This document shows positions 13,958 through 27,073 of a DNA stretch of 64,000 nt, piece by piece. The notes under the pieces are model-generated. The model made no database searches. It worked only from the letters and a program-made list of their open reading frames with translations, and was not told where the DNA came from. The DNA is from Loktanella sp. M215 (GTDB lineage Bacteria > Pseudomonadota > Alphaproteobacteria > Rhodobacterales > Rhodobacteraceae). Position 1 is the first letter of the stretch, and every line of letters begins with the position of its first letter. Location: contig NZ_WMEA01000008.1 in the NCBI RefSeq assembly GCF_021735925.1, positions 1-64,000 on the forward strand, written 5' to 3'. The position numbers were made by a program, and so were the translations under genes.

Positions 13958-16003
13958 TCATGGGCGCAGATTGATCTGCACACTCGCGGACGCGCCTGCG
14001 GCATCGACAACCGTGACCTGTGCAAATCCGGGGCCGGGCAGCAAGACCTCTGCGCCGCGCGCGCCAGGCGCACCGTTCACGAGGATCGTATAGGGCGGCA
14101 CCCCGCCTCGCAGCTTGACCGGCACCTGCAGGTCCGGGGCCGCGATCTCAGCCCCATCGGGCGGATAGATCACGCGCAAAGGGTCCAAGGGGGCCGCCGC
14201 CGGGGCACTGACCTCGCCCGCCGGCACGAAGCGGCGCAGCGCGGCTGGCAGTGCCGCGTTCGCCACGGTCAGCGTTCCGGGCGGTGGCGGCGCAAGCGGC
14301 ACGTCCGGCAAGGCCGCGAAGATGTCGAACAGCACGGGTGCGGCCAGATCGCCGCCAAAGGCACCCGGCACCGGGGTCCCGTCCGGCCGCCCCAGCCAGA
14401 CCGCCGCCACATGCGCGCCGTCAAAGCCAACCGCCAGCGCATCGCGGTTGCCATAGCTGGTGCCGGTCTTGTAGGCGATGCGCCCGCCCCGCGCGCCCGG
14501 CGGCGGCGGCAATTGCGACAGGATGTGACCGACCTGCCAGGCGGCAACGGGTCCGAACATCGCGACTCCGGTCGAGGCGCCCTGCCCCGGCAGCGCCGAC
14601 AACTTCACCCCCTGCCCTCCCCTTGCCAGTGCTGCATAGGCCTGCGCCAGATCCTGCAACGTGACCCCGGCCCCGCCCAGCACGACCGCCAGTCCCGGCG
14701 CACCCTGCGGCACCACCAGCGGCACGCCCGCCCGCGCCAGCGCCTGCACGATCCGGGCAGGCCCCAGCGCCGCGGCCACCCTGACCACCGGAATGTTCAG
14801 CGACAAGATCAGCGCCCGCCGGATCGACAGCGTGCCGCGAAACATGTTGTCGAAATTCTGCGGTTGCCAAGTGCCAAAAACGGTCGGCCGATCCTCGATC
14901 AGGGTCTCCGGATGCGCCAGCCCGTCATCGAAGGCCAGCCCGTAGACAAAGGGCTTCAGCGTCGACCCGGGCGAGCGCAGGACCAGCGTCATGTCCACGA
15001 ATCCCGCGCGCCCGGTATCCGTCCACGCCGCCGTCCCGACAGAGGCGCGGATCGCCCCACTGTGAATATCCGCCACGACAATCGCTGCCGAGAGAGCGCC
15101 CCCGCGCCGGTCCACGGCCTGCGCGGCCAGCGCCTCGGCCCGGCGCTGCAGGGCCGCGTCGATCGTCGTCTCGATTCGCAGCGCCCCCGGCAGACTGCGG
15201 TGCAACCGCGCCGCCAGCAAGGGGGCCAGCGCCGGAAACGGCCGGCGCAGTGTGGGCAAGGGTTCCCCCATCGCCGCCGTCGCGGCCTGTGCTGTCAGCA
15301 CGCCGGTGGCCGCCGCCCGCCGCAGGACCCGGTCCCTGGCGGCCCGCGCGGCAGCCGGGAACCGGTCGGGCCTGCGCGCCTCTGGCGCCTGCGGCAACGC
15401 CACCAGCAAGGCCGCCTCTGCCGGCGTCAACCGGCGCGGGTCCTTGCCGAACCACGTCAGGCTCGCCGCCCGCACGCCCTCGATGTTGCCGCCATAGGGT
15501 GCCCGCCGCAGATACAGATTGAGGATCGCGTCCTTTCCCAGCCGCCGCTCCAACGCCAGCGCCAGCCGGACCTGACGCCCCTTGCCCGCCCATGTGCCGG
15601 TCGTCCCGTCCTCCAGCAACCGCGCGACCTGCATCGTCAGGGTCGAGGCGCCGGACACCACGTGCCCGCCCCGCACCGCCTGCACCCCGGCCCGCAACAC
15701 CGCCCGGGCATCGACGCCGCCGTGCGCGCGAAACCGGGCATCCTCCCACATCAGCAACAGGTCGACGAACAGCGGATCGACCGCCCCCGGATCCAACCGC
15801 CACCTGCCGTCGCCCACCTGAAACGCCCGCAGCAGGCTGCCGTCGCGGGCCAGAACCTCTGCCCCGACTGGGACCGCAAGGACTGGCAAAGGCGTCGCCG
15901 CGACGAAGGCGTCCAGCCGGTCGCGCCCCAGCGCCCCGCAAAACAGCACCAGCGCAAGCGAGGCGACCCACAGCGCCGCCAGACGGGGATCAGGGCGAGA
16001 CAC
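13958..16003 (-). CDS. pbpC: Penicillin-binding protein 1C (peptidoglycan glycosyltransferase/transpeptidase)
   Basis: A 681-residue class A penicillin-binding protein. After an N-terminal anchor it has a GT51 glycosyltransferase domain with the catalytic region EDARFRAHGGVD and GASTLTMQVARLL, then a transpeptidase domain with SxxK in SPGSTLKPFVYG and the KTGTS box, then a BiPBP_C-like beta domain. I chose GTG at 16003, preceded by GGAGGAG at six bases; an upstream ATG at 16060 lies inside the macroglobulin gene. It overlaps the end of that gene by 14 bases, so translation is likely coupled. The pairing with alpha-2-macroglobulin is widespread and is thought to couple cell-wall repair to protease trapping in the periplasm. 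Confidence 0.94.
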   Translation of the reverse strand: MSRPDPRLAALWVASLALVLFCGALGRDRLDAFVAATPLPVLAVPVGAEVLARDGSLLRAFQVGDGRWRLDPGAVDPLFVDLLLMWEDARFRAHGGVDARAVLRAGVQAVRGGHVVSGASTLTMQVARLLEDGTTGTWAGKGRQVRLALALERRLGKDAILNLYLRRAPYGGNIEGVRAASLTWFGKDPRRLTPAEAALLVALPQAPEARRPDRFPAAARAARDRVLRRAAATGVLTAQAATAAMGEPLPTLRRPFPALAPLLAARLHRSLPGALRIETTIDAALQRRAEALAAQAVDRRGGALSAAIVVADIHSGAIRASVGTAAWTDTGRAGFVDMTLVLRSPGSTLKPFVYGLAFDDGLAHPETLIEDRPTVFGTWQPQNFDNMFRGTLSIRRALILSLNIPVVRVAAALGPARIVQALARAGVPLVVPQGAPGLAVVLGGAGVTLQDLAQAYAALARGGQGVKLSALPGQGASTGVAMFGPVAAWQVGHILSQLPPPPGARGGRIAYKTGTSYGNRDALAVGFDGAHVAAVWLGRPDGTPVPGAFGGDLAAPVLFDIFAALPDVPLAPPPPGTLTVANAALPAALRRFVPAGEVSAPAAAPLDPLRVIYPPDGAEIAAPDLQVPVKLRGGVPPYTILVNGAPGARGAEVLLPGPGFAQVTVVDAAGASASVQINLRP

Positions 16004-19000
16004 GCACCTCTCCTCCGTCGGACCAGCCGCGATAGGCGGGGCGATACATGTCCTCGACACTCGCCGCGGGATGCCGGAACACGCCCGGCGTCACCGCCCG
16101 CACCAGATAGGCCAGCCGGAACGGATCGGACAGAGTCCAGGTCACGGCGGCGCTGAACCGGTCGGACAGAAACTGGCTCATCTCCGGCTCTGCCAGCGCA
16201 TCAAGCCAGTCCAGCCCGGCCACATCGCCCGCCCGCAGCAGGTGCGGATTGTCGATCTCGAATCCCGCCGGCAGCGGATCGGTCACCATCAGTCGCCCGC
16301 CCGCGTCATCCGTCGCACTGAACGGCGTCACCGTAACGACGACAGCCAGCCGCGTCCCCAGCGGCACGGTGGACACATCGACCGGCTGCCCCTCCAGATC
16401 GTAGTAGGCCCGACTGATAGCATAGCCGTTGCCCCCCGCCGCGGGCGGGTCCAGCGGCGGGCCAAGTGCAGTCAGCGTCACCTCCGTCGCCACGGCACCC
16501 TCGTTCGTCACGCTGCGCGCCAAGGGATCAAGCGTCGCCACGACGCCCCCCAGCGCCAGCCCGTCAACCGACAGTGACGGGCTGCCCTGCCCCAAGGCCT
16601 GCGCCGCCAGCACGGTCCAGACCGACTCCTGCGTCGAAAGACCCGCACCCTCCGCCGTCCGCGCCGCGATCTGCGACGCCAGCGCGCGGGTTTCCGCTCC
16701 GGTGTCGATCACCGTCGACCCGGCTTGCGTCGCGGCGGCCAGCACGGCGGCGCGGTCCCGCAAAAGGCTGCCGTAATCGCGGCGGAACACCCGTTGGTCG
16801 TCCGTGCCTTGCGCCAGCAGATCGCGCGCCTGTGCGAACATCCGGTCAGCGCGCGGCTGATCGCCAAGCGTCGCCAGCGCCTCGCCGATCTGCGCGGCCG
16901 CCATCGGGGTGGCGAAACTCTCTGCCGCCGCATCGGCGTCATAGCGCAGATCACCGATCCGCGCCGCCCGCTCGCGCGCCAGCACGACACTGGCATAGGC
17001 AAGCGCCGCGTTTTCACCGGGGTCCGCATAGGCCGGATCGGTGGCATAATTCACCTGATTGACCAGATTGCCGATCGCCGCCTGAAACGGCTGATCCGGC
17101 ACGGCAAAGCCCGCCGACCGCGCCCGTGACAGAAAATCCGTGGCATAGGCATCCAGCCAGAAATCCCCCGCCCCCGGCCCCCACAGCCCGAAGGCCCCCT
17201 CTGCCGTCTGTCGCGTCAGGATCGCGGTGATCGCATCCTGCACGGCCTTTTCCGTATCCTGATCGCCACGCCCGCCCACCTGCGCCGACAGGTCCGGCAC
17301 ATAAAGTAACGGCATCGCGACAGAGGCGAGCTGTTCCGTGCAGCCATAAGGATAGCGCGCCAAGCGTCCCAGCGCGCCCGCCACGTCGAGCGCCGCAAAG
17401 GGTCCCGCCGTCGCGGTCAGCCGCGCGCCGGTGCCAAGCCCCGCCATCAGGGCGGGGTCGATGGGCGCCGTCTCTCCCGGTGCCAAAGTCAAACGAGCCG
17501 TGCGAAAAACGTCGGGTTCGGCCAGCGACACGGGGATCGCAATTTCTTTCGTCACCACATCGCCCGCCGGCGTCGTCAGGCTGAACCGCAGCAGGCCCGT
17601 TCCCGCGTCCTCATCGGCCCGCACAGGCAGGCTGACCGTCGTGCTGCCGCTCTCGGCGACCTCCACTGTCGCTGGCAGCGCGCCTGGGTTCAGCCCGACA
17701 TCACCCGCATCCGCCACGGACAGGCCGACATCGCCCACCGGCCCCGTCACATGGGTCAGCGCCAGCGACACCTGCCCCGTATCACCCGGCGACAGGAACC
17801 GCGGCGCGGTCACGACCATCACGACGGGGTCGCGGATCGTGGCAACCGCCGTGGCCTGCCCCACAGCCCCCGCCGACCAGGCCACGGCCATCACCTGCAC
17901 CGACCCGATGAAATCCGGCACCGGCACGTCCAGCGTCGCCGTGCCGTCCGCGCCCAAGGTCACCGGCCCCGAAAACCAGCTCATCAGCGCCTCGGTCGGT
18001 GGCGGGGCCTGTGTTCCCATCGCCCCGCCCGCGTCGCCACCGCTGCGCACCACGCCGTCGGGCGCGTCCGTCGGCAGGATCAGCCGCCCGTAAAGATCGC
18101 GCAACCCCACGCCCAGACGGCGCTGGCCAAAGTAGTGCTCCATCGGATCGGGCGCCTTGAACCCCGTCAGGTTCAGGATGCCCTGATCGACGACCGCGAC
18201 GGTGACATGCACGACGTCTCCCGCGGCCTGACCCGACACGCGCAAGCGCACCGGTAGGCTGCCGCGCGGCGCGATCGCGGACGGCACATCCATCAGCACC
18301 TGCAACGCCCGCGCACCCGGATCAACGGGCGCATAGGCCAGCCCCAGTGCCCGCACCCCACCCCGGTCGCCCGCAACATCGTCTAGGGGCCGCAACGCGC
18401 TGACGGTGACATAGCTGCCCGCACCCCAGTCATCGGTCACCGCCAGCGGGATCGTGTTTTCGCCCGCCGTCAGCGGCACGATCTTCAGCGCGCTAACCCG
18501 GTTCGACAGGACCGAGACGATGGCCACGGCATCCCGCTCTGCCGTCACATGCACCTGCGCCGTCTCGCCGCTGCGATAGGCCGCCTTGTCCAACGCCACG
18601 CGCAACCGGTCCGGCGTATCCGTCCCCGCTTGCGCCGCACCCCAACCGGCCTGAAACAGGACGGATGCGCCGGCGGCGCCCGTCCCTTCCACGACCAGCT
18701 CATACTGTCCCCAGTCCACCGGCACCGCGATCTCTCCGCTGCCCGCAAGCGCATCACCCGCCGCGACCTGCCTGCGCCGCGTCACCGGCTCCCAATTCCA
18801 GCGCCCGTCGATGGCGTACCATTGATAGTCCGTCTCGACCCGGTTCAGCACCCAGCGGACCGGCATCTGCACCGCGTTCAACGCCGCCCCAACCGCCACG
18901 ACAGCAAAGCGGGCCTCATCCCCGCTCGACACCGCATCGCCCGCGAACAGCGGCCTGATCCCGATCAGCGGCGCGGGCGGCAACACCAGCCGCGTCGCCA

Positions 19001-21440
19001 CCCGCTCCACCGGACGACCCGCGCCTTCACGCACCTGCAGCGCGATCGTGGCCGTCTGCGCCGCCCCGGTCCCGGCGGTCAGCACCACGTCGGTCGCAAA
19101 ATGACCCTGCGCATCGGTCTGACCGGCGGGCAGATAGGTGGTCTGCGGCGTCTCTTCCGCATCCTGCCGCCCGAACTGCACCCCCTCGAAACCCGGAAGA
19201 CTGCGCGCCGGGGCGAGCGTCACGCCCCCCTCGACCGGCAGATCCGCCGCAGGTGCGCCGAACAGCCAGCGTGCGTCGAGCGCCACGCGAACCGTCTGCC
19301 CGGCGACCAAAGGCCCCTCTGCCAGCGCCGGGTCAAAATCGATCCGTTCCGGCAAGAAATCCTCGACCAATGCCCGCGCACTGGCCAGCGCCGGCCCGTC
19401 CGCCGCAACCCGGATATCAACACGCCACGTCCCGCGCGGGGCAGAGGCTGCTAAAGGAAATGACAGCACATATCCACCGTCACCCGCAGGTTCGGGCATC
19501 TGCCGTGCCGCCTCCACCCCGTCGGGGCGGTAAAGGATTGCCGTCACCGGCAAGCCGTCCAGCGCCTGCACCCGCCCGTCGCGGGCCAGCACGGTCGCGT
19601 TGATCACCTCTCCCGCGCGGTAGGCACCGCGGTCTAGCGTCAGGAACACGTCGATCGGCGGGCTGGGCGGCAGGCCCGCCACGCCCCGGTCGGACAGATC
19701 GAACTCCGGATCGGTCAGCGACAGGAACGCCATGTCCTCCGCCGCGCCGCGGACCACCACCGCCGCGGGGGCCTGCGACCCCGGCCCGCGCGTCAGGCCC
19801 GCATCGAACCGCACAACGCCGTCGTCGTCCGCCAGCGCCGTCCCGAGGACCGCGTTGGCACGCGACAGCAGCGTGACCTCTGCCCCCGGCTTCGACCCGG
19901 CATCCGCCAGACCGCGCACCACCACCGTCAGCCCGTCCACCCCCATCAGGGTCGAGATCCCGAGGTCCGAGATCACGAACCACTGCGCCGCGACGCCGGT
20001 CTCCTCCACGTCCTGCCCCGGCACCGTCGCCTGCAGCACGTAGATGCCGGGCGCCAGCGGCCCCGCCTCATCCGGGATCGCAAGGCGGGTTGTCACATCC
20101 GCGTTCAGCTTCCCCTGCCCCGCCACGGTCGCACTGCCGCGCCAGACCTCGGTCGCGCGGTCCGCGTTGAAGCGCTGCGCCGACCAGGCATCCAGCGGGC
20201 GCGCGAACAGATCGTCCTGCAGCGCGCCGATCAGGTTGCGGTCCGACATCCGCATCAGCCGCAGATCGACACGGTCGAGGTTCACCGTCGTCATCGCCAG
20301 CCCCCGGTCGCCCCCCGACGGCAGCACGTAGGCGCGCCCCGGAAACCGCACCGCAGGGCTGCGGTCACGGATATAGCCGCTGATCGCCACGTCCCGCGCC
20401 AACGTCTCTCCGTCGGCCGCCGGAAGACCGCGCCGCAGGGTGATCGCGATGTCCTGCCCGTGGGTCAGACCGCCAACGCAAAGCTGATCACCCCGCGCCT
20501 CGACCGTCAGGCCACTGTCGGGCAGCCGCACGAAGGAGGCGTAATCCAGTCGTTCCAACAGAGGTTCAGAGAAGGCGGCACAGAACGACGGCGACAGGCT
20601 TTCGGACTGCACCGTCTGTTCGGTCACGCGAAAGCCGTTGCGCGCTTCTGACGCGGCCAGCGCATCGGCAATCCCCGGCGCGGGCGACAGGATGGCGGCC
20701 AGCCGCAAGGCCTGCAACCCGTCGCGGCCTCGCCCCAGTTGCTCCCACGCGGCGGCCAGAACCTGCAGGGCCTGCGCCGCCAAGGCGTCATCATCGGCCC
20801 GCAAGTAGCCGTTCAGCGCAAGCGACGCCGCCGTGCCCGCCGCGTCGCTGTCGTAAGTCTCGGGATCGGGCAGCACCTGCCGCGCCAGCCGGATCCAGGC
20901 ATCGGCGGAATCACTGCGCCCGACCTCCGTGGCAAGATACCCCGACGCCGCCGTCAGGTCTCCGGCCCCTGCCGCGCGTGCAGCGTCCCCGACCGGATCG
21001 TCACTGGCCAGCGCCGTGAACGTCGCGCCAAAACTCCGCGCCTGCCGCAAAGCGGCCTGCAGATCCGCATCCGCCAGCCAATCAGCCGCCGCCGCACGTC
21101 GGATCACCTGCTGCCGCGCGACGGCATTGTCGAGGACCTGAGCCGAGGTCGCACCGATGAAATCCTGCGGTATCCCCAGCGCCTCCTTCGGAAAACAGGC
21201 GCGCGATCGCTGGTTGTAGGTCATTGCCACGCAGGCGGTATCCGCGAGGCAGGCCTGAATGCAGGCCTCAAGGCTCGTCTCGAAGATCGGGGTCAGATCA
21301 CCGCCGGGCAGATCCGTGTCGGGCATCAGACTGACGCGCCGGTCAGGCACCAGCGCCTGTTGCGCCATCACAGCCTGCGCTGTGATCATCAGCGCCATCA
21401 GGGCAAAGGCCCAGACGCGTCCCGCACCCGTTCTGCGCAT
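15990..21440 (-). CDS. Bacterial alpha-2-macroglobulin with N-terminal PAN/Apple-like domain
   Basis: A 1,816-residue secreted protease-trap protein. A signal peptide (about residues 1-29, ending AVMA) precedes a short cysteine-rich segment (EACIQAC, TACVAM, RACFPK, about residues 50-90) that resembles a PAN/Apple domain. The rest consists of macroglobulin beta domains and a thioester domain with the reactive motif GCTEQ near residue 1,365. Unlike many bacterial homologues there is no lipobox at the signal cleavage site, so it is predicted to be soluble or held by partners. The start at ATG 21440 has GGAGG eight bases upstream. It is the first gene of a two-gene leftward operon with pbpC. Confidence 0.92.
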   Translation of the reverse strand: MRRTGAGRVWAFALMALMITAQAVMAQQALVPDRRVSLMPDTDLPGGDLTPIFETSLEACIQACLADTACVAMTYNQRSRACFPKEALGIPQDFIGATSAQVLDNAVARQQVIRRAAAADWLADADLQAALRQARSFGATFTALASDDPVGDAARAAGAGDLTAASGYLATEVGRSDSADAWIRLARQVLPDPETYDSDAAGTAASLALNGYLRADDDALAAQALQVLAAAWEQLGRGRDGLQALRLAAILSPAPGIADALAASEARNGFRVTEQTVQSESLSPSFCAAFSEPLLERLDYASFVRLPDSGLTVEARGDQLCVGGLTHGQDIAITLRRGLPAADGETLARDVAISGYIRDRSPAVRFPGRAYVLPSGGDRGLAMTTVNLDRVDLRLMRMSDRNLIGALQDDLFARPLDAWSAQRFNADRATEVWRGSATVAGQGKLNADVTTRLAIPDEAGPLAPGIYVLQATVPGQDVEETGVAAQWFVISDLGISTLMGVDGLTVVVRGLADAGSKPGAEVTLLSRANAVLGTALADDDGVVRFDAGLTRGPGSQAPAAVVVRGAAEDMAFLSLTDPEFDLSDRGVAGLPPSPPIDVFLTLDRGAYRAGEVINATVLARDGRVQALDGLPVTAILYRPDGVEAARQMPEPAGDGGYVLSFPLAASAPRGTWRVDIRVAADGPALASARALVEDFLPERIDFDPALAEGPLVAGQTVRVALDARWLFGAPAADLPVEGGVTLAPARSLPGFEGVQFGRQDAEETPQTTYLPAGQTDAQGHFATDVVLTAGTGAAQTATIALQVREGAGRPVERVATRLVLPPAPLIGIRPLFAGDAVSSGDEARFAVVAVGAALNAVQMPVRWVLNRVETDYQWYAIDGRWNWEPVTRRRQVAAGDALAGSGEIAVPVDWGQYELVVEGTGAAGASVLFQAGWGAAQAGTDTPDRLRVALDKAAYRSGETAQVHVTAERDAVAIVSVLSNRVSALKIVPLTAGENTIPLAVTDDWGAGSYVTVSALRPLDDVAGDRGGVRALGLAYAPVDPGARALQVLMDVPSAIAPRGSLPVRLRVSGQAAGDVVHVTVAVVDQGILNLTGFKAPDPMEHYFGQRRLGVGLRDLYGRLILPTDAPDGVVRSGGDAGGAMGTQAPPPTEALMSWFSGPVTLGADGTATLDVPVPDFIGSVQVMAVAWSAGAVGQATAVATIRDPVVMVVTAPRFLSPGDTGQVSLALTHVTGPVGDVGLSVADAGDVGLNPGALPATVEVAESGSTTVSLPVRADEDAGTGLLRFSLTTPAGDVVTKEIAIPVSLAEPDVFRTARLTLAPGETAPIDPALMAGLGTGARLTATAGPFAALDVAGALGRLARYPYGCTEQLASVAMPLLYVPDLSAQVGGRGDQDTEKAVQDAITAILTRQTAEGAFGLWGPGAGDFWLDAYATDFLSRARSAGFAVPDQPFQAAIGNLVNQVNYATDPAYADPGENAALAYASVVLARERAARIGDLRYDADAAAESFATPMAAAQIGEALATLGDQPRADRMFAQARDLLAQGTDDQRVFRRDYGSLLRDRAAVLAAATQAGSTVIDTGAETRALASQIAARTAEGAGLSTQESVWTVLAAQALGQGSPSLSVDGLALGGVVATLDPLARSVTNEGAVATEVTLTALGPPLDPPAAGGNGYAISRAYYDLEGQPVDVSTVPLGTRLAVVVTVTPFSATDDAGGRLMVTDPLPAGFEIDNPHLLRAGDVAGLDWLDALAEPEMSQFLSDRFSAAVTWTLSDPFRLAYLVRAVTPGVFRHPAASVEDMYRPAYRGWSDGGEVRVSP

Positions 21441-21517
21441 CGTCACGTCCTCCACCACGCGGCCCCTTGGGACAGCTTCCGCCCCGCCCCGGATTCGCGC
21501 AAGCGAATTTCAGGCGC

Positions 21518-22201
21518 CTAGACGTCGACCTCGACCCGCCGGATCGTCGGATCGCAGGCCAGAAGGGCGGCCATCAGATGCCCGGTGTAATGGCTGCGCA
21601 CGTAATCGGCGATGAACCGTGTCGGGGCCACCAGTCGCAAGACGCCGCCGTCACGGGTCCGCATCCGCAACCCGCTGAACCAGGCCTGGAACAGCGCCGG
21701 GGCATCCTGCTGCAGACGGGCGGCCGCCTCGGCCCAGATGCCATCCGCCGCGGTCGTGACAGGGACGGGATGCAGGGGCACGACATTGCTGACCGGGACC
21801 TGGGGCATCGCCGCGGCGCCGGTCATGCGGGCGGTAAAGTCCGGACCGACCGCCGTCCAATAGGGCATCGTGTCCGGCAGCACCGCGTCAAAGTGGATGG
21901 CATGGGTCGCCACACGGCCCCGCGCCGCGGGGATGGTCACGCTGATCCAGCCAAGGCCGCGCATCTGCGCCAGCTCTCGTTTCGCCGTACGTTCCGTCAC
22001 ACCCCACATCCGCGCGATCTCGCGCTGGCCCACACAGAACTGACCCAGTCGCCAGTTGAAGCGGGCCGTGATCAGCAGCGACAACCGCAGCGCCAGACGG
22101 CCCTGCACCGGCGCGCCCTGGGCCGCCAGGGTCAGCAACGCTGTCAGCACATCGTATTTCTGTGCGCCCGCCTGCGGCCCGGCCGCCGGTCTGATCTGCA
22201 T
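21518..22201 (-). CDS. DnaA-like plasmid replication initiator
   Basis: A 227-residue protein. The N-terminal half contains a winged-helix segment (about residues 48-85, VGQREIARMWGVTERTAKRE). The C-terminal 75 residues resemble DnaA domain I: IWAEAAARLQ, then FQAWFSGL, LRLVAPTRFIADYV and a final beta strand. This matches the DnaA-like initiator class of Rhodobacterales plasmids, which lacks the AAA+ and domain IV parts of true DnaA. The start at ATG 22201 has AAGGAG seven bases upstream. It is divergent from parA-parB, the usual layout for this class. A possible promoter with TTGACA lies at 22330-22358. Confidence 0.82.
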   Translation of the reverse strand: MQIRPAAGPQAGAQKYDVLTALLTLAAQGAPVQGRLALRLSLLITARFNWRLGQFCVGQREIARMWGVTERTAKRELAQMRGLGWISVTIPAARGRVATHAIHFDAVLPDTMPYWTAVGPDFTARMTGAAAMPQVPVSNVVPLHPVPVTTAADGIWAEAAARLQQDAPALFQAWFSGLRMRTRDGGVLRLVAPTRFIADYVRSHYTGHLMAALLACDPTIRRVEVDV

Positions 22202-22329
22202 GATCCGCTCCTTGCCCCACGGTCCTCCGCGCTGCGGGGTCCGTCATCCGTTCAACCTCTGGTGGGTGATCATCCTTGCGACCTGCGTCATGGAACCGTC
22301 TTGGCAACGCTTTTGCCACCCTGTCGCTG

Positions 22330-22358
22330 ATTAGCGTTGGATTGCCATCGCCTGTCAA
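22330..22358 (-). promoter_or_regulatory. Predicted promoter of the replication initiator
   Basis: Reading the minus strand, TTGACA (22353-22358) is followed after 17 bases by GCTAAT (22330-22335). The -35 matches the sigma-70 consensus fully and the -10 matches four of six bases. It would give a leader of about 120 bases before the initiator start codon. Confidence 0.5.
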
Positions 22359-22438
22359 GGATTCGTCATCGCCGCCTGCCGCCCTTCCCCTTTCAAAAGA
22401 CAAGAAAAGGTATGGTGTTGGTATAGGGGGTCGCCCAG

Positions 22439-22506
22439 CATGTCCCGCCAAAGCGCCGCGATGTCCCCTCAATGGGTAGTGGCGGGAATTTCATGTCCCC
22501 CCAAAT
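22439..22506 (+). repeat. Three iteron-like direct repeats (putative origin)
   Basis: Three 15-base imperfect repeats lie between initiator and parA: CATGTCCCGCCAAAG (22439-22453), GATGTCCCCTCAATG (22460-22474) and CATGTCCCCCCAAAT (22492-22506). They share the core ATGTCCC and start 21 and 32 bases apart, close to two and three helical turns, so all three would face the same side of the DNA. Just upstream is an A-rich stretch (22392-22411). The arrangement suits initiator binding at an origin; direct evidence is lacking. Confidence 0.5.
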
Positions 22507-22596
22507 CGGGGCGTTCTGGCGTTCCGAATCGTCAGCAGATCGAATCGCTGCAAGGCCTTTGGCGTCGACCGTTGCGCGGCCGGGTCGCAGATCAGA

Positions 22597-22614
22597 CCTT
22601 ATCCGCAGATAAGG
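22597..22614. repeat. parS-like palindrome, copy 1 (imperfect)
   Basis: CCTTATCCGCAGATAAGG, differing from the perfect copies by one base in the centre. It lies 85 bases before the parA start, between the iteron-like repeats and the parA promoter region, so ParB or ParA binding here could also regulate the operon. Confidence 0.65.
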
Positions 22615-22636
22615 TTTTGTAGCACGCAACCATCTC

Positions 22637-22665
22637 TCGACAAAACATGCATTTTGCGCGTAAAT
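22637..22665 (+). promoter_or_regulatory. Possible parA promoter
   Basis: TCGACA (22637-22642, five of six matches to the -35 consensus) and GTAAAT (22660-22665) are 17 bases apart. The spacer includes the inverted element CAAAACATGCATTTTG (22641-22656), a possible autoregulatory site. The -10 match is weak. Confidence 0.3.
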
Positions 22666-22698
22666 CGTCGAAAGCACAGAAACAACGTCCGAGGCATC

Positions 22699-24003
22699 AT
22701 GTTCACTCATCACGACCTGCGCGAGATCCAGACGCGATCGCTCAAGATGCAGGGCTGGATCCGGCAGCAGACCTTCTCTCCCGAGAACACCAAGACGCTG
22801 CGCCGGTTTTCCAGCTGGGAGGTGTCGGAGCTGATCCTGCACATGAACCAGTCCACCTTTCGCGGGCGCATGGCGGCCGACCCCAGCCTGCCCGCCGGAC
22901 TGGTCGAACCCGACGGTCGTCAGCGGTGGTTCACGCTGGAAGAGGTCAACACCCTGCGCCGGAAGCTGAAGGTCAAGGGGAAGTCCCTGATGCCGCCCCG
23001 CCCCAAGGGGCGGGCGTTCCGGACGGCCATCGCCAACTTCAAGGGCGGCGCCGGCAAGTCGACGGTCGCCCTTCACTTCGCCCATGCCGCCGCCCTCGAA
23101 GGCTACCGCGTGCTCTGCGTCGACTTCGACCCGCAGGCGACGCTGTCCCACTCCATGGGTCTCACGGACGTGAGCGAGGAGCAGACGGTCTGGGGCATCA
23201 TGGCCCGCGATCTGGTGCGAGAGACGGAGGCCGCGAACAATGCCCCCGCCGCTGCCGCGTCAGGCACCGCCCTGCCCCGCCGCACGATCCCGTCCAGCAT
23301 CACCGACCTCGGCCTGCAGAATCTGCGCATCGCGGACTTCATCCAGCCGACCGCCTGGCCCACGATCGACATCATCCCCAGCTGCGCCAACGCGGCCTTC
23401 GTGGAGTTCGCCTCCGCCCAGTACCGGCATTTGAACCCGGAGTGGTCGTTCTTTGCCGCCGTGTCCCGCTACCTCGACCAGTTGCCGGACGACCAGTGGG
23501 ACCTGATCTTCTTCGACTGTCCGCCCGCCATCGGCTACCAGTCGATGAACGCAGTCTTCGCCGCGGATATGCTCTATATCCCCTCTGGCCCCGGCTACTG
23601 GGAATACGACAGCACGACGTCCTTCATCGGTCAGCTGGCCGAGGCGCTTGGCGATCTGGCGGATGGTTTTCAGGGCGCGCTGCCAGAGGATGGCATGACC
23701 CTGCCCAAGGCCTTCGTCGACATCCGGTTCCTACTGACCCGGTTCGAGCCCGGCAACGATCTGCACCGCGCGATGCAGGATGCATTCGGCAAGGTTTTCG
23801 GTGACAAGCTGGCCCAGCACCCCGTCGAGATGACGCGTGCCGTCGAACAGTCGGGCCGGTTCCTCGCCTCGATCTACGAGATGGACTACCGCGACATGAC
23901 CCGGGAAACTTGGCGCCGGGCGCGCGCCAGCTTTGATCAGGCTTACGACGAATTTCACGACACCATGCTGCCGCACTGGACCGCCATGGGCGCGCAGGAC
24001 TGA
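22699..24003 (+). CDS. parA: Plasmid partition ATPase ParA
   Basis: A 434-residue type Ia ParA. The N-terminal 110 residues form a DNA-binding region of the kind used for autoregulation, including SWEVSELILHMNQSTFRGRM. The ATPase core has a deviant Walker A KGGAGKST (about residue 114), LCVDFDPQATLS (A' box) and LIFFDCPPAIG (Walker B). ATG at 22699 has GAGG five bases upstream and gives a sensible N-terminus; an earlier in-frame start at 22654 has no such site. It is followed after 61 bases, including a palindrome, by parB. Together they should segregate the replicon, with ATP-bound ParA on the nucleoid pulling ParB-parS complexes. Confidence 0.93.
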   Translation: MFTHHDLREIQTRSLKMQGWIRQQTFSPENTKTLRRFSSWEVSELILHMNQSTFRGRMAADPSLPAGLVEPDGRQRWFTLEEVNTLRRKLKVKGKSLMPPRPKGRAFRTAIANFKGGAGKSTVALHFAHAAALEGYRVLCVDFDPQATLSHSMGLTDVSEEQTVWGIMARDLVRETEAANNAPAAAASGTALPRRTIPSSITDLGLQNLRIADFIQPTAWPTIDIIPSCANAAFVEFASAQYRHLNPEWSFFAAVSRYLDQLPDDQWDLIFFDCPPAIGYQSMNAVFAADMLYIPSGPGYWEYDSTTSFIGQLAEALGDLADGFQGALPEDGMTLPKAFVDIRFLLTRFEPGNDLHRAMQDAFGKVFGDKLAQHPVEMTRAVEQSGRFLASIYEMDYRDMTRETWRRARASFDQAYDEFHDTMLPHWTAMGAQD

Positions 24004-24013
24004 CCCAACCCCG

Positions 24014-24041
24014 CAAAACCTTATCCGCGGATAAGGTTTTG
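24014..24041. repeat. parS-like palindrome, copy 2 (perfect, 28 bp)
   Basis: A perfect 28-bp palindrome with core CCTTATCCGCGGATAAGG and CAAAA/TTTTG arms. It occupies the space between the parA stop and the parB start. Confidence 0.75.
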
Positions 24042-24064
24042 CCAGACCGATAAGGGGACCGACC

Positions 24065-25180
24065 ATGACCCGCAAGAAACGCATCTTCGATGTCGAAATG
24101 CCTGACGACACGCCACAGGCCGCACCCGCCGCATCGGAACCCGATGCCGGGCAGGGCGCGCGGCGCGGCCCGATGGCCAGTGCCATCTCTGAAAACGCGT
24201 CGGCGTTACAGGCGCGCAATGCCGCCGCCGCCGCGATCCGGGCCGAGAACGATGAGCTGGCCCATGCCTTCGTCGCGATGAAGGCGGCGGGGCAGGTGGT
24301 GGAGGCGATCCCCCTTGATCAGGTTCACACCTATCTGCTGACCCGCGAACGGCTGGGCAGCGACGATCCGGAGCTTGATGATCTGGTGACCTCGATCCGC
24401 GAGGTTGGCCTGTCGAACCCGATCCGGGTCGAGGCGCGCGCCGACGGGACCGGTTACGAATTGATCCAGGGCTTTCGCCGCCTGTCCGCCTACCGCGTTC
24501 TGGCCGAGGAGGACCCGGAGACATGGGGCAGGGTGCCGGCACTGGTCCTTCCCCGCGGGGAAGATGTGGCGGGCCTTTATCGCCGGATGGTGGACGAGAA
24601 CGTCGTGCGCAAGGACCTGTCCTTTGCCGAGATGGCCAATGCCGCACAGAATTACGCCGCCGACCCGGCGACGCCGGTGAACGACCTGCAGGGCGCGGTC
24701 AAGGCCCTGTTCCAGTCCGCACCCTATTCCAAGCGCAGCTATATCCGGGCCTTTGCCCGGATGCTGGACCTGATCGGCGACTGCCTGATGTACCCGACCG
24801 AGATCCCGCGCAAGCTGGGCGTCGATCTTGCACGAGAGCTGGAGGACCGGCCTGAACTGGTCGGACGCATCCGCGATGACCTGCGCGACTGGGACATGCG
24901 GTCGATCCACGACGAGCTGGAGGTGCTGCGCCGTCACGTCGGCGTCGACCGCTACATGGACGACGGCCCCGTGACGCCCGCGCCATCGAAGCCCGTGCGC
25001 GCCGGGCTTGCCGACCGGGGCAAGACCAAGACGACCTTCGATCTGCGCACGGCGCGGGGGCGTGTGAAATGCACCGCCGCGGTGGGGCGGCTGGAGATCA
25101 AGATCGACCGCGACTTTTCGACGATGGACCGGGCGCGGCTGGAACGGGCGATTGCCGCGCTGATCGACGGGTTGGATTGA
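24065..25180 (+). CDS. parB: Plasmid partition protein ParB
   Basis: A 371-residue ParB/RepB family protein. A charged N-terminal tail leads to the ParB nuclease-like domain (about residues 80-190) with LIQGFRRLSAYR, the arginine-rich CTP-binding patch, and LYRRMVDENVVRKDLSFAEMA. A helix-turn-helix region follows (about 210-290), then a C-terminal dimerisation part (VKCTAAVGRLEIKIDRD). It should bind the palindromes on both sides of its own gene and spread from them. Operon partner of parA; no repC-like gene follows, so this is not a RepABC system. Confidence 0.92.
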   Translation: MTRKKRIFDVEMPDDTPQAAPAASEPDAGQGARRGPMASAISENASALQARNAAAAAIRAENDELAHAFVAMKAAGQVVEAIPLDQVHTYLLTRERLGSDDPELDDLVTSIREVGLSNPIRVEARADGTGYELIQGFRRLSAYRVLAEEDPETWGRVPALVLPRGEDVAGLYRRMVDENVVRKDLSFAEMANAAQNYAADPATPVNDLQGAVKALFQSAPYSKRSYIRAFARMLDLIGDCLMYPTEIPRKLGVDLARELEDRPELVGRIRDDLRDWDMRSIHDELEVLRRHVGVDRYMDDGPVTPAPSKPVRAGLADRGKTKTTFDLRTARGRVKCTAAVGRLEIKIDRDFSTMDRARLERAIAALIDGLD

Positions 25181-25189
25181 GCGCTGTGA

Positions 25190-25221
25190 ACCAAAACCTT
25201 ATCCGCGGATAAGGTTTTGGT
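25190..25221. repeat. parS-like palindrome, copy 3 (perfect, 32 bp)
   Basis: The longest copy: a perfect 32-bp palindrome centred on CCTTATCCGCGGATAAGG with ACCAAAA/TTTTGGT arms, nine bases after the parB stop codon. It could also fold as a hairpin in the parB transcript. Confidence 0.75.
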
Positions 25222-25312
25222 CTGGCGCGGGCGACAGTGTCGCGCGCGGTTTTTGCGAAAATATATTTAAAACAGCGCGATAGTGCCAATCGGTTTGAAA
25301 TCGCCGCTCCCG

Positions 25313-25332
25313 ACCTTATCCGCGGATAAGGT
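25313..25332. repeat. parS-like palindrome, copy 4 (perfect, 20 bp)
   Basis: ACCTTATCCGCGGATAAGGT, in the 234-base gap between parB and the convergent BCCT transporter. The right flank keeps the TTTTG arm of the other copies but the left flank does not. The rest of the gap (25222-25312, 25333-25377) shows nothing else I recognise apart from an A+T-rich patch near 25256-25273. Confidence 0.72.
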
Positions 25333-25377
25333 TTTGTCATCAAATCTTGTAGCTTACGACGCGGCTTGCAGTCCCTT

Positions 25378-25403
25378 CCTTCTCCGCGGCGCGATGGAGA
25401 AGG
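25378..25403 (-). terminator. Hairpin downstream of the BCCT gene
   Basis: CCTTCTCC and GGAGAAGG form an 8-bp stem around a ten-base loop, 12 bases beyond the BCCT stop. There is no T-run on either strand, so termination is only a possibility. Confidence 0.3.
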
Positions 25404-25414
25404 CACCTCCTGCA

Positions 25415-27073
25415 TTACTCTGCCGGCTGGGCCGCAGCGTTTGTCGGGCTGGCAGGGTCCGCGCCATACAGCTCTCCGGGCAGTTCGGGCGGCATGGCGT
25501 GGTCGGCCTCTGCATCGTTGCGGTATTTCCGGTTGTGCCGGTAGACGATCAGCGGGTCCCACCGCAGCGCCTTGAACAGGCCGATCAGGATCAGCGCCAC
25601 GACGATGGCAAAGGGAAAGCCCGCCACGACCGCCGCCGCCTGCAGCGCCGACAACCCGCCCGCCAGCAGCAGGACAGAGGCCACGGCACCTTCGCTGATC
25701 GCCCAGAAGATGCGCTGCACCCGCGGCGGATTCGGATCGCCGCCCGCAGTCAGCATGTCGATGACGAAGGACCCGGAGTCGGACGAGGTCACGAACCACA
25801 TCACGATCAGGATGATCGCAAAGCCCGACGTCAGGCTGGCGAAGGGGAAGTAGTCCAGCAGGGCGAACATCGCATCGCCGTAGGCGTTCTGCGTCGCCTC
25901 GACCAGCGTCGGATCGCCCCCAAGCGAGATCGACAGCGCCGTGCCGCCGAAGGCGCAGAACCAGAAGAACATGATCGACGCAGGAATCAGCATGACGCCC
26001 ACGATGAATTCGCGGATCGTGCGGCCGCGGCTGATGCGGGCGACGAAGACCCCGACGAAGGGCGCCCAGCTGACCCACCACGCCCAGTAGAAGATCGTCC
26101 AGTCGTTCTGCCATTTGCCGCCGTCGGTCCAGGCCTCGGTCCATGTTCCCCAAGAGATCAGGTCGCGGACATAGGCGCCGTAGCTTTGCACGAAGGTGTC
26201 GAAGATAAAGAGCGTCGGGCCGACGATCACCATGAAGGCCAGAAACAGGATCGACAGGGCGATATTGATGCTCGAAAGCCGCTTGATCCCGCCGTCGAGG
26301 CCCGCGATGACCGACAGCGTCGCCATGGCTGTTATGACCGCGATGACGGCGATCTGGACGAAGGTGTTTTGCGGCAGGCCGAAGACCTCTGTCAGGCCTG
26401 AATTGATCTGCATCGCGCCAAGGCCCAGCGAGGTCACGATGCCGAACATCGTGCCGAAGACGGCGAGGATATCGACCACGTCGCCCCAGAAGCCAAAAAT
26501 GCGGTCGCCCAGCAGCGGGTAAAGGGCGGACCGGATCGTCAGCGGCAGGCCCTTGCGGTAGTGGAAATACGCGAGGCTCAGCGCCACGACCGCATAGACG
26601 GCCCAGGCGTGAAACCCCCAGTGCAGGAAGGAAATCGTCATGGCCTGCTTGGCGGATGCGACGGTCTCGGCCTCGCCAACCGGGGGGGCGAAGTAGTGAT
26701 AGATCGGCTCTGCCGCGCCCCAGTAGATCAGGCCGATCCCGATCCCGGCCGAGAACAGCATCGCCGTCCAGGAAAAGAGGCTGTATTCCGGCGCCTCGTC
26801 CATGCGGCCCAGCCGGATATCGCCGTAGCGGCCGAAGGCGAGGTAGATCACGGCGGCCAGCAGGACGTTGACCAGAATGATCATTGCCCAGCCAAAGGTA
26901 TTGGCCAGCCAGTCCTGCAGCCCGGAAAACACGGCGCCCGCCGTTTCGCTGAAGGCGGCGCCGAGGACGATGAACCCGAGGATCAGGATGGCCGAGACGG
27001 AGAAGACCCTGATGTGCACCTTGGGGAAGATCAGAAGCCGCTGTTGCTTCATCTTGTCCATGTGATCGTTCAT
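25415..27073 (-). CDS. BCCT-family betaine/choline/carnitine transporter
   Basis: A 552-residue inner-membrane protein with about twelve helices. Family marks include GIGIGLIYWGAAEP near the first third and WWVSWAPFVGVFVARISRGR, the conserved tryptophan/arginine helix of BCCT carriers. The C-terminal tail is short and acidic, unlike the long osmosensing tail of BetP. It should import a quaternary amine such as glycine betaine or choline by sodium or proton coupling. ATG at 27073 has GGAAGGG upstream; a start at 27184 would add 37 arginine-rich residues not seen in the family. It is a single gene, convergent with parAB. Confidence 0.92.
   Translation of the reverse strand: MNDHMDKMKQQRLLIFPKVHIRVFSVSAILILGFIVLGAAFSETAGAVFSGLQDWLANTFGWAMIILVNVLLAAVIYLAFGRYGDIRLGRMDEAPEYSLFSWTAMLFSAGIGIGLIYWGAAEPIYHYFAPPVGEAETVASAKQAMTISFLHWGFHAWAVYAVVALSLAYFHYRKGLPLTIRSALYPLLGDRIFGFWGDVVDILAVFGTMFGIVTSLGLGAMQINSGLTEVFGLPQNTFVQIAVIAVITAMATLSVIAGLDGGIKRLSSINIALSILFLAFMVIVGPTLFIFDTFVQSYGAYVRDLISWGTWTEAWTDGGKWQNDWTIFYWAWWVSWAPFVGVFVARISRGRTIREFIVGVMLIPASIMFFWFCAFGGTALSISLGGDPTLVEATQNAYGDAMFALLDYFPFASLTSGFAIILIVMWFVTSSDSGSFVIDMLTAGGDPNPPRVQRIFWAISEGAVASVLLLAGGLSALQAAAVVAGFPFAIVVALILIGLFKALRWDPLIVYRHNRKYRNDAEADHAMPPELPGELYGADPASPTNAAAQPAE

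Follow-up and report, generated by a model that had tools for sequence, protein, structure and literature searches.

Candidate parS palindromes co-vary with one ParB residue in a predicted DnaA-like plasmid replicon of Loktanella sp. M215 and its relatives

The first 64 kb of contig NZ_WMEA01000008.1 of Loktanella sp. M215 (the window, 64,000 nucleotides of the 133,372-bp contig C8, in a 5.2-Mb assembly of 11 contigs) hold a divergent module consisting of a DnaA-like initiator gene, the partition genes parA and parB, and four 28-bp palindromes (Table 1). We consider this locus to be the core that replicates and partitions a low-copy DnaA-like Rhodobacterales plasmid, with the palindromes as the parS sites of its ParB, at a probability of about 0.88. 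Comparison of the module with its relatives showed that, in the aligned sequences, ParB residue 221 varies together with the outer palindrome bases, and residue 222 does so to a looser degree. This suggests that one ParB amino acid decides which palindrome is recognised. The replicon type itself, that of the DnaA-like plasmids, is already known.

The co-variation was examined in 77 aligned ParB sequences, 74 of them labelled with a site class, and later in 97 aligned sequences with 94 labelled. Loci without a usable ParB open reading frame (L050, L057, L108) or without a palindrome (L101) were left out, L077, L100 and L105 were aligned without a label, and L056 was labelled A although its sites are mixed. 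Among the 74 labelled rows, base 1 was C with Tyr221 (68/68), T with Pro221 (3/3) and G with Lys221 (3/3). Base 2 had been preset to T for these rows, and TT at positions 2 and 3 was confirmed in all 74 consensus sites. Over the enlarged set, residue 221 fits bases 1 and 2 in 94 of 94 labelled rows, Tyr pairing with CT, Lys with GT, Arg with TG and Pro with TT. Column 221 had a normalised mutual information of 1.0 and was the sole perfect column of 354, the next best reaching 0.38. The first-base rule was seen by reading the alignment; the initial ranking had been made for base 4 and gave columns 253, 222 and 220. At base 4, Gln222 was accompanied by C in 48 of 48 rows.

Twenty-eight plasmid loci (L142-L169) were fetched after the rule had been formed, with the Lys221 protein of L102 and others as queries. 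All 20 that carry Tyr, Lys or Pro at position 221 (L142, L143, L147-L149, L152-L164, L167, L169) fit the rule. Fifteen of these are among the first 20 loci fetched (L142-L161), in which the other five had the previously unseen Arg221 and read TG. With L168 as the sixth, all Arg221 loci (also L144-L146, L150 and L151) read TG, the first five preceding any rule for Arg. The last two loci, L165 and L166, have another helix-turn-helix (HTH), and no family site was found in them. Site labels for L142-L161 were set by hand; L157 has one unrepeated palindrome only, and L146 was labelled TG despite imperfect mixed sites (GGTCCCC, AGTCCCC, TGTCCCC). No DnaA-like initiator was found in the stretch fetched for L143, L144, L157, L158, L165, L166 and L167. 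L168, from Leisingera methylohalidivorans, has 16 TGTCCCC-type palindromes in the searched stretch, mostly after parB, compared to four in the window.

The association of the palindrome with the module was examined in the best 80 of 179 loci encoding a relative in a scan of genome contigs, which together with the window make 81 loci. The search took palindromes to be recurring 16-mers in which no more than one pair is mismatched, no sequence being given. The largest cluster of alike palindromes had at least two members in 77 of the 80 loci (L101 had no candidate) compared to 6 of 400 shuffles. The family pattern was scored in 76 of the 81 loci, with at least two sites in 75, at least three in 66 and at least four in 49. 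Sites lie inside parA in 71 of the 76, after parB in 61, inside parB in 43, in the initiator-parA gap in 37 and in the parA-parB gap in 33; parA and parB of the window have no internal palindromes of their own class. Collectively, these counts show at the sequence level that palindrome and module go together in different genera. Four loci without a clear family site (L077, L100, L101, L105), three of which (L077, L100, L105) have the same HTH motif nonetheless, and one with a near version only (L094) weigh against a strict association. In L100, L101 and L105, related parAB genes are accompanied by GTTGACAGCTGTCAAC palindromes, with no match to a DnaA-like initiator; these loci possibly represent another replicase type.

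In the window, the arrangement described by an earlier sequence-only reading, with one imperfect palindrome before parA, one between the genes and two after parB, was confirmed, copies 2, 3 and 4 being perfect over 30, 32 and 20 bp, respectively. Three exact copies of the 18-mer lie in the module and one on the chromosome of the same genome; 7.6e-5 occurrences of an exact 18-bp palindrome are expected by chance in 5.2 Mb at equal base use. Perfect palindromes of 16 bp or longer number seven on the 133-kb contig, where Markov shuffles predict 5.65, so there is no general surplus of palindromes. The unusual point is that the copies in the module have one common sequence. The proposal that these are the centromeres of this ParB is supported by their retention with the module at ~60% ParB likeness and by the change of the site with the predicted recognition helix. 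A CTTCCCC-class palindrome was also observed within parB of the window, which belongs to a CTTATCC-class plasmid, and likewise in L032; it may have been left behind when the site class changed.

The match between residue and site could also be a matter of shared ancestry only, ParB clades and palindromes having been inherited together without residue 221 reading the bases. A number of observations lean this way and count against a direct residue-base rule. The site classes follow the ParB tree, on which bases 1-2 and residue 221 change only four times each (base 4 five times, residue 222 thirteen times), and independent pairs are too few (1-2 for bases 1 and 2, 3-4 at base 4) for significance to be reached. 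The later loci are partly kin of the first set, as L161 is a second Marinovum algicola (the first being L054), L162 and L163 come from Loktanella salsilacus, as does L033, and L142 is 79% like L102, which was itself the query. Base 4 is matched better by column 253 (0.51) than by column 222 (0.39), and six rows have C without Gln222. We nevertheless regard ancestry alone as unlikely: all 354 columns share one tree, yet only residue 221 matches the site perfectly; in the model of ParB this residue is the first of the recognition helix (221-240, after helix 208-215); and in chromosomal ParB, base 1 is read by an amino acid in the HTH region (PMC7383237).

Other readings take the palindromes to be something else than ParB sites. 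Transcription terminators behind parA and parB would account for copies 2 and 3, which lie directly after stop codons and have A/T flanks, and for the chromosomal copy, which is located in a short convergent gap and can form a hairpin. However, copy 1 is upstream of parA, relatives carry copies inside parA and parB at the frequencies given above, a terminator scan of 21400-25500 found none, and what is conserved and co-varies with ParB is the sequence itself, beyond the hairpin; a terminator function is therefore very improbable. Binding sites for the initiator or for host DnaA, with a role in replication control, are suggested by the paired TTATCC arms, of which that of copy 1, TTATCCGCA, is one mismatch from what we take to be the DnaA box, TTATCCACA, and by the way the copies surround the replication core. 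In other classes, however, the arms are CTTCCCCG, GTTCCCCG or TGTCCCCG and not DnaA-box-like, the site classes follow a ParB residue, and DnaA_N is the only part of DnaA that Pfam detects in the initiator, which makes this reading barely credible. We therefore retain the interpretation of the palindromes as probable parS sites.

The plasmid nature of the module is consistent with its setting. Contig C8 is separate from C1 (4,005,088 bp), which has the match taken as chromosomal DnaA. The GC content is 63.6% in C8 and 64.4% in a 17-kb chromosomal sample, and the cumulative GC-skew minimum of C8, at 23-24 kb, falls on the module. A position far from any origin on a large chromosome, named beforehand as a sign against a replicon core, was thus not what we observed on this 133-kb contig. 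As to circularity, a point on the other side is that the contig ends do not overlap. The Marinovum plasmid pMaD5 is 72.5% identical over 82% of the queried stretch and encodes a product named 'plasmid replication protein DnaA-like-I'; DNA identity to the first-listed plasmid modules is 71-74%. The locus combines a DnaA-related replicase with adjacent parAB and homology to this named member, and a Walker ParA with a clamp-type ParB that has an HTH. All parts of the initially proposed DnaA-like initiator with divergent parAB are present, as seen by sequence, repeat search and Pfam. A RepABC plasmid was considered and rejected: there is no repA-repB-repC operon, the initiator is divergent and of DnaA_N type, and parB is followed by a BCCT transporter gene on the opposite strand. 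On the other side, the initiator adjoins a large gene (15990-21458) with bacterial alpha-2-macroglobulin domains.

Table 1. Features of the replication and partition module, in window coordinates
Feature	Position	Strand	Basis or remarks
DnaA-like initiator gene, 227 aa	21518..22201	-	winged helix ~11-127, linker, DnaA domain I 155-227
Gap between initiator gene and parA, putative replication origin	22202..22698		conserved blocks in 14 aligned loci; GC-skew minimum
Conserved pair AACGCTTTT ... TTAGCGTTG, inverted AACGC/GCGTT parts	22306..22339		35/74 and 29/74 intergenic regions; expected fractions 0.001 and 0.005
Conserved block TGTCAAGGATTC	22353..22364	+	31/74 intergenic regions; expected fraction 0.000
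Iteron-like repeat 1, TGTCCCGCCAA	22441..22451	+	conserved; spacings recur in relatives
Iteron-like repeat 2, TGTCCCCTCAA	22462..22472	+	21 bp after repeat 1
Iteron-like repeat 3, TGTCCCCCCAA	22494..22504	+	32 bp after repeat 2
Palindrome copy 1, imperfect, core CCTTATCCGCAGATAAGG, candidate ParB site	22592..22619		repeat search
TCGACA ... GCGTAAAT element, parA promoter candidate	22637..22665	+	each part in 32/74 regions; expected fractions 0.086 and 0.005
parA, partition ATPase of Walker type, extended at the N-terminus	22699..24003	+	AAA_31 4.5e-25; partition_RepA 7.4e-55
Palindrome copy 2, perfect, in the parA-parB gap; putative ParB site	24014..24041		repeat search
parB, 371 aa	24065..25180	+	residues 221-222 = codons 24725-24730, start of predicted recognition helix
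Palindrome of other main class, CTTCCCCGCGGGGAAG, inside parB	24548..24563		possible relic
Palindrome copy 3, perfect, downstream of parB; putative ParB site	25192..25219		repeat search
Palindrome copy 4, perfect over 20 bp, downstream of parB; putative ParB site	25309..25336		repeat search

Pfam placed DnaA_N at residues 155-212 of the initiator (E-value 4.7e-10, above the gathering score) and a Crp-type HTH, below threshold, at residues 35-87. The AlphaFold2 model (predicted local distance difference test score 89) falls into two halves, a winged helix and a DnaA domain I, and its top Foldseek matches were two chains, D and B, of 4tps, a structure of SirA together with DnaA domain I; from their length these were assumed to be the DnaA chains. 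No AAA+ domain or DnaA DNA-binding domain was found in the initiator. Since neither was found, the C-terminal DnaA domain I would most likely recruit the host helicase or DnaA. The N-terminal winged helix would most likely bind the phased TGTCCCC repeats found upstream of parA.

Three of these repeats are among the blocks common to 14 aligned intergenic regions. The strict iteron pattern was present in 43 of 74 intergenic regions, with 0.009 copies expected per region; its absence from the other 31 is a point against the interpretation of the locus. A pattern-free search of 67 of the 74 regions, those with ParB identity of 55%-59% being left out, gave repeat spacings of 32, 21 and 53 bp in 48, 44 and 44 regions. 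The same spacings lead in both groups of relatives (19, 18 and 16 of 26 regions; 29, 26 and 28 of 41), where the median over all spacings is 1 and 2 regions, respectively. As in an iteron-type origin of replication (oriV), the phased direct repeats adjoin the initiator gene, and the TGTCCCC repeats spaced by 21 and 32 bp likely mark oriV. The iteron region is thus a small oriV candidate for a replicase class whose origin is not described in the excerpts of the literature searched. DnaA boxes were rejected as a feature of the window, where two near matches, one of them palindrome copy 1, compare to four expected by chance. A sigma-70 consensus scan did not pick out the TCGACA ... GCGTAAAT element and gave a single promoter-like match, at 25289-25260 on the minus strand.

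The parA reading frame can begin at 22654, and the conserved start is the ATG at 22699, found at this position in 13 of 14 aligned loci, the window included. The partition_RepA match of parA is below the curated cut-off, and the partition-family matches of parA and parB are partly below their cut-offs. ParA has a RepA-like N-terminal extension, and ParA proteins of this kind usually autorepress. This speaks against copy 1 doubling as an operator, as the sequence-only reading had proposed, as do the distance of 17 bp that separates copy 1 from the conserved TCGACA element downstream of it and the presence of an initiator-parA copy in only 37 of 76 loci. ParB has a clamp-type N domain, which was matched in a PDB sequence search with the ParB alignment, and an HTH, which was not matched there. 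As in other members of these families, ParB would recognise the palindromes as parS sites and ParA would move the ParB-palindrome complexes. The pairing of residue and bases would then set partition specificity, and hence part of plasmid compatibility.

Outside the module, the exact 18-mer is located at C1:1780453-1780470 (L011) on the chromosome of the same genome, in the short gap between a helicase gene (AAA_30, UvrD_C_2) and a convergent Alph_Pro_TM gene. Among nine genomes of the genus, four keep it in this place, exactly in the present genome (G000) and as a variant differing at 1-2 bases in three of the eight others (G394, G006, G395); five have none there (G400, G399, G396, G397, G398). 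A plasmid of this class was not seen in G395, since the exact 14-mer is found nowhere in that genome. For the chromosomal copy, a terminator or chance remnant is a likelier explanation than a functional ParB site. That the copy is a cognate site, through which the plasmid ParB acts on the chromosome, for example by coupling the segregation or timing of replicons, seems quite improbable. With this one chromosomal copy, the genome lacks the wide, ParB-independent spread that had been named as evidence against the proposed centromeres. Elsewhere in it, a TTTACCGCGGTAAA palindrome lies beside a ParB-like gene on C4, and a pair of near-palindromes, GTATCGCATGCGAAAC, surrounds the ParB-like gene of C6.

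In a sample of 394 family genomes the exact 18-mer was found in ten, and it stands beside this parA or parB in seven (G000, G006, G145, G160, G186, G189, G303); in G123, G159 and G195 it was not beside parA or parB at the loci fetched. G195 (L019, L028, L116) weighs against an exclusive link to ParB, with 134 scattered copies of the 14-bp core TTATCCGCGGATAA on many contigs, which look like a dispersed palindromic repeat. Some copies follow one another in a row ~30 bp apart, and neither parA nor parB stands beside the loci fetched. A further 14-bp core (L113, G303:C5:355029) was observed on the same contig as the G303 module, ~217 kb away.

The sites also bear on plasmid grouping. The DnaA-like-I plasmid pMaD5 has CTTATCC sites. 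Leisingera methylohalidivorans pMeth_A285 is called DnaA-like-I as well (PMC3910554, available in part), and the 285-kb record of that strain, which we infer from size and strain to be pMeth_A285, has TGTCCCC sites. Judged by these sequences, plasmids called DnaA-like-I carry different palindromes. The claim that the exact palindrome defines an incompatibility group was accordingly refined: the exact 18-mer does not correspond one-to-one with a published group, as it is common to several genera, position 5 is T or C within the class, and DnaA-like-I palindromes differ. Strain SC52 has two replicons with DnaA-like initiators that differ in both sites and HTH triplets. A pair of Loktanella salsilacus plasmids that share their site were rejected as a case of natural coexistence; being from different strains, they are uninformative on compatibility. 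If the residue-to-base rule is true, the partition compatibility of this plasmid class could be read from sequence, the label DnaA-like-I would need dividing by partition site, and the rule might go some way to explaining the coexistence of similar plasmids. A single roseobacter cell can hold as many as twelve extrachromosomal replicons (PMC9025767).

In RepABC plasmids, palindromes are cis-acting anchors of ParB/RepB and group markers, and a single reciprocal base change separates RepABC-1 and RepABC-2 (PMC5613091, available in part). In contrast to RepABC, the initiator here is divergent and DnaA-like, the candidate origin lies between initiator and parA rather than within the replicase gene, and a ParB residue is matched to palindrome bases. 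For chromosomal ParB and Noc, with their sites parS and NBS (Noc-binding site), R173 or Q173 in the HTH region switches the preferred base 1 (PMC7383237). The clamp-type N domain is shared with these proteins; the present system differs in being plasmid-borne and in its palindrome, and any equivalence of residue 221 to Caulobacter residue 173 would be tentative. The literature searched, seen in excerpts, holds neither iterons of this type nor a ParB residue code. Petersen et al. (2011, Mol Biol Evol), known to us through citing papers, reportedly described the DnaA-like plasmid replicons of Rhodobacterales and may already describe the palindromes or the origin. It is these replicons that the module resembles, as large low-copy replicons with a DnaA-like replicase and adjacent parAB.

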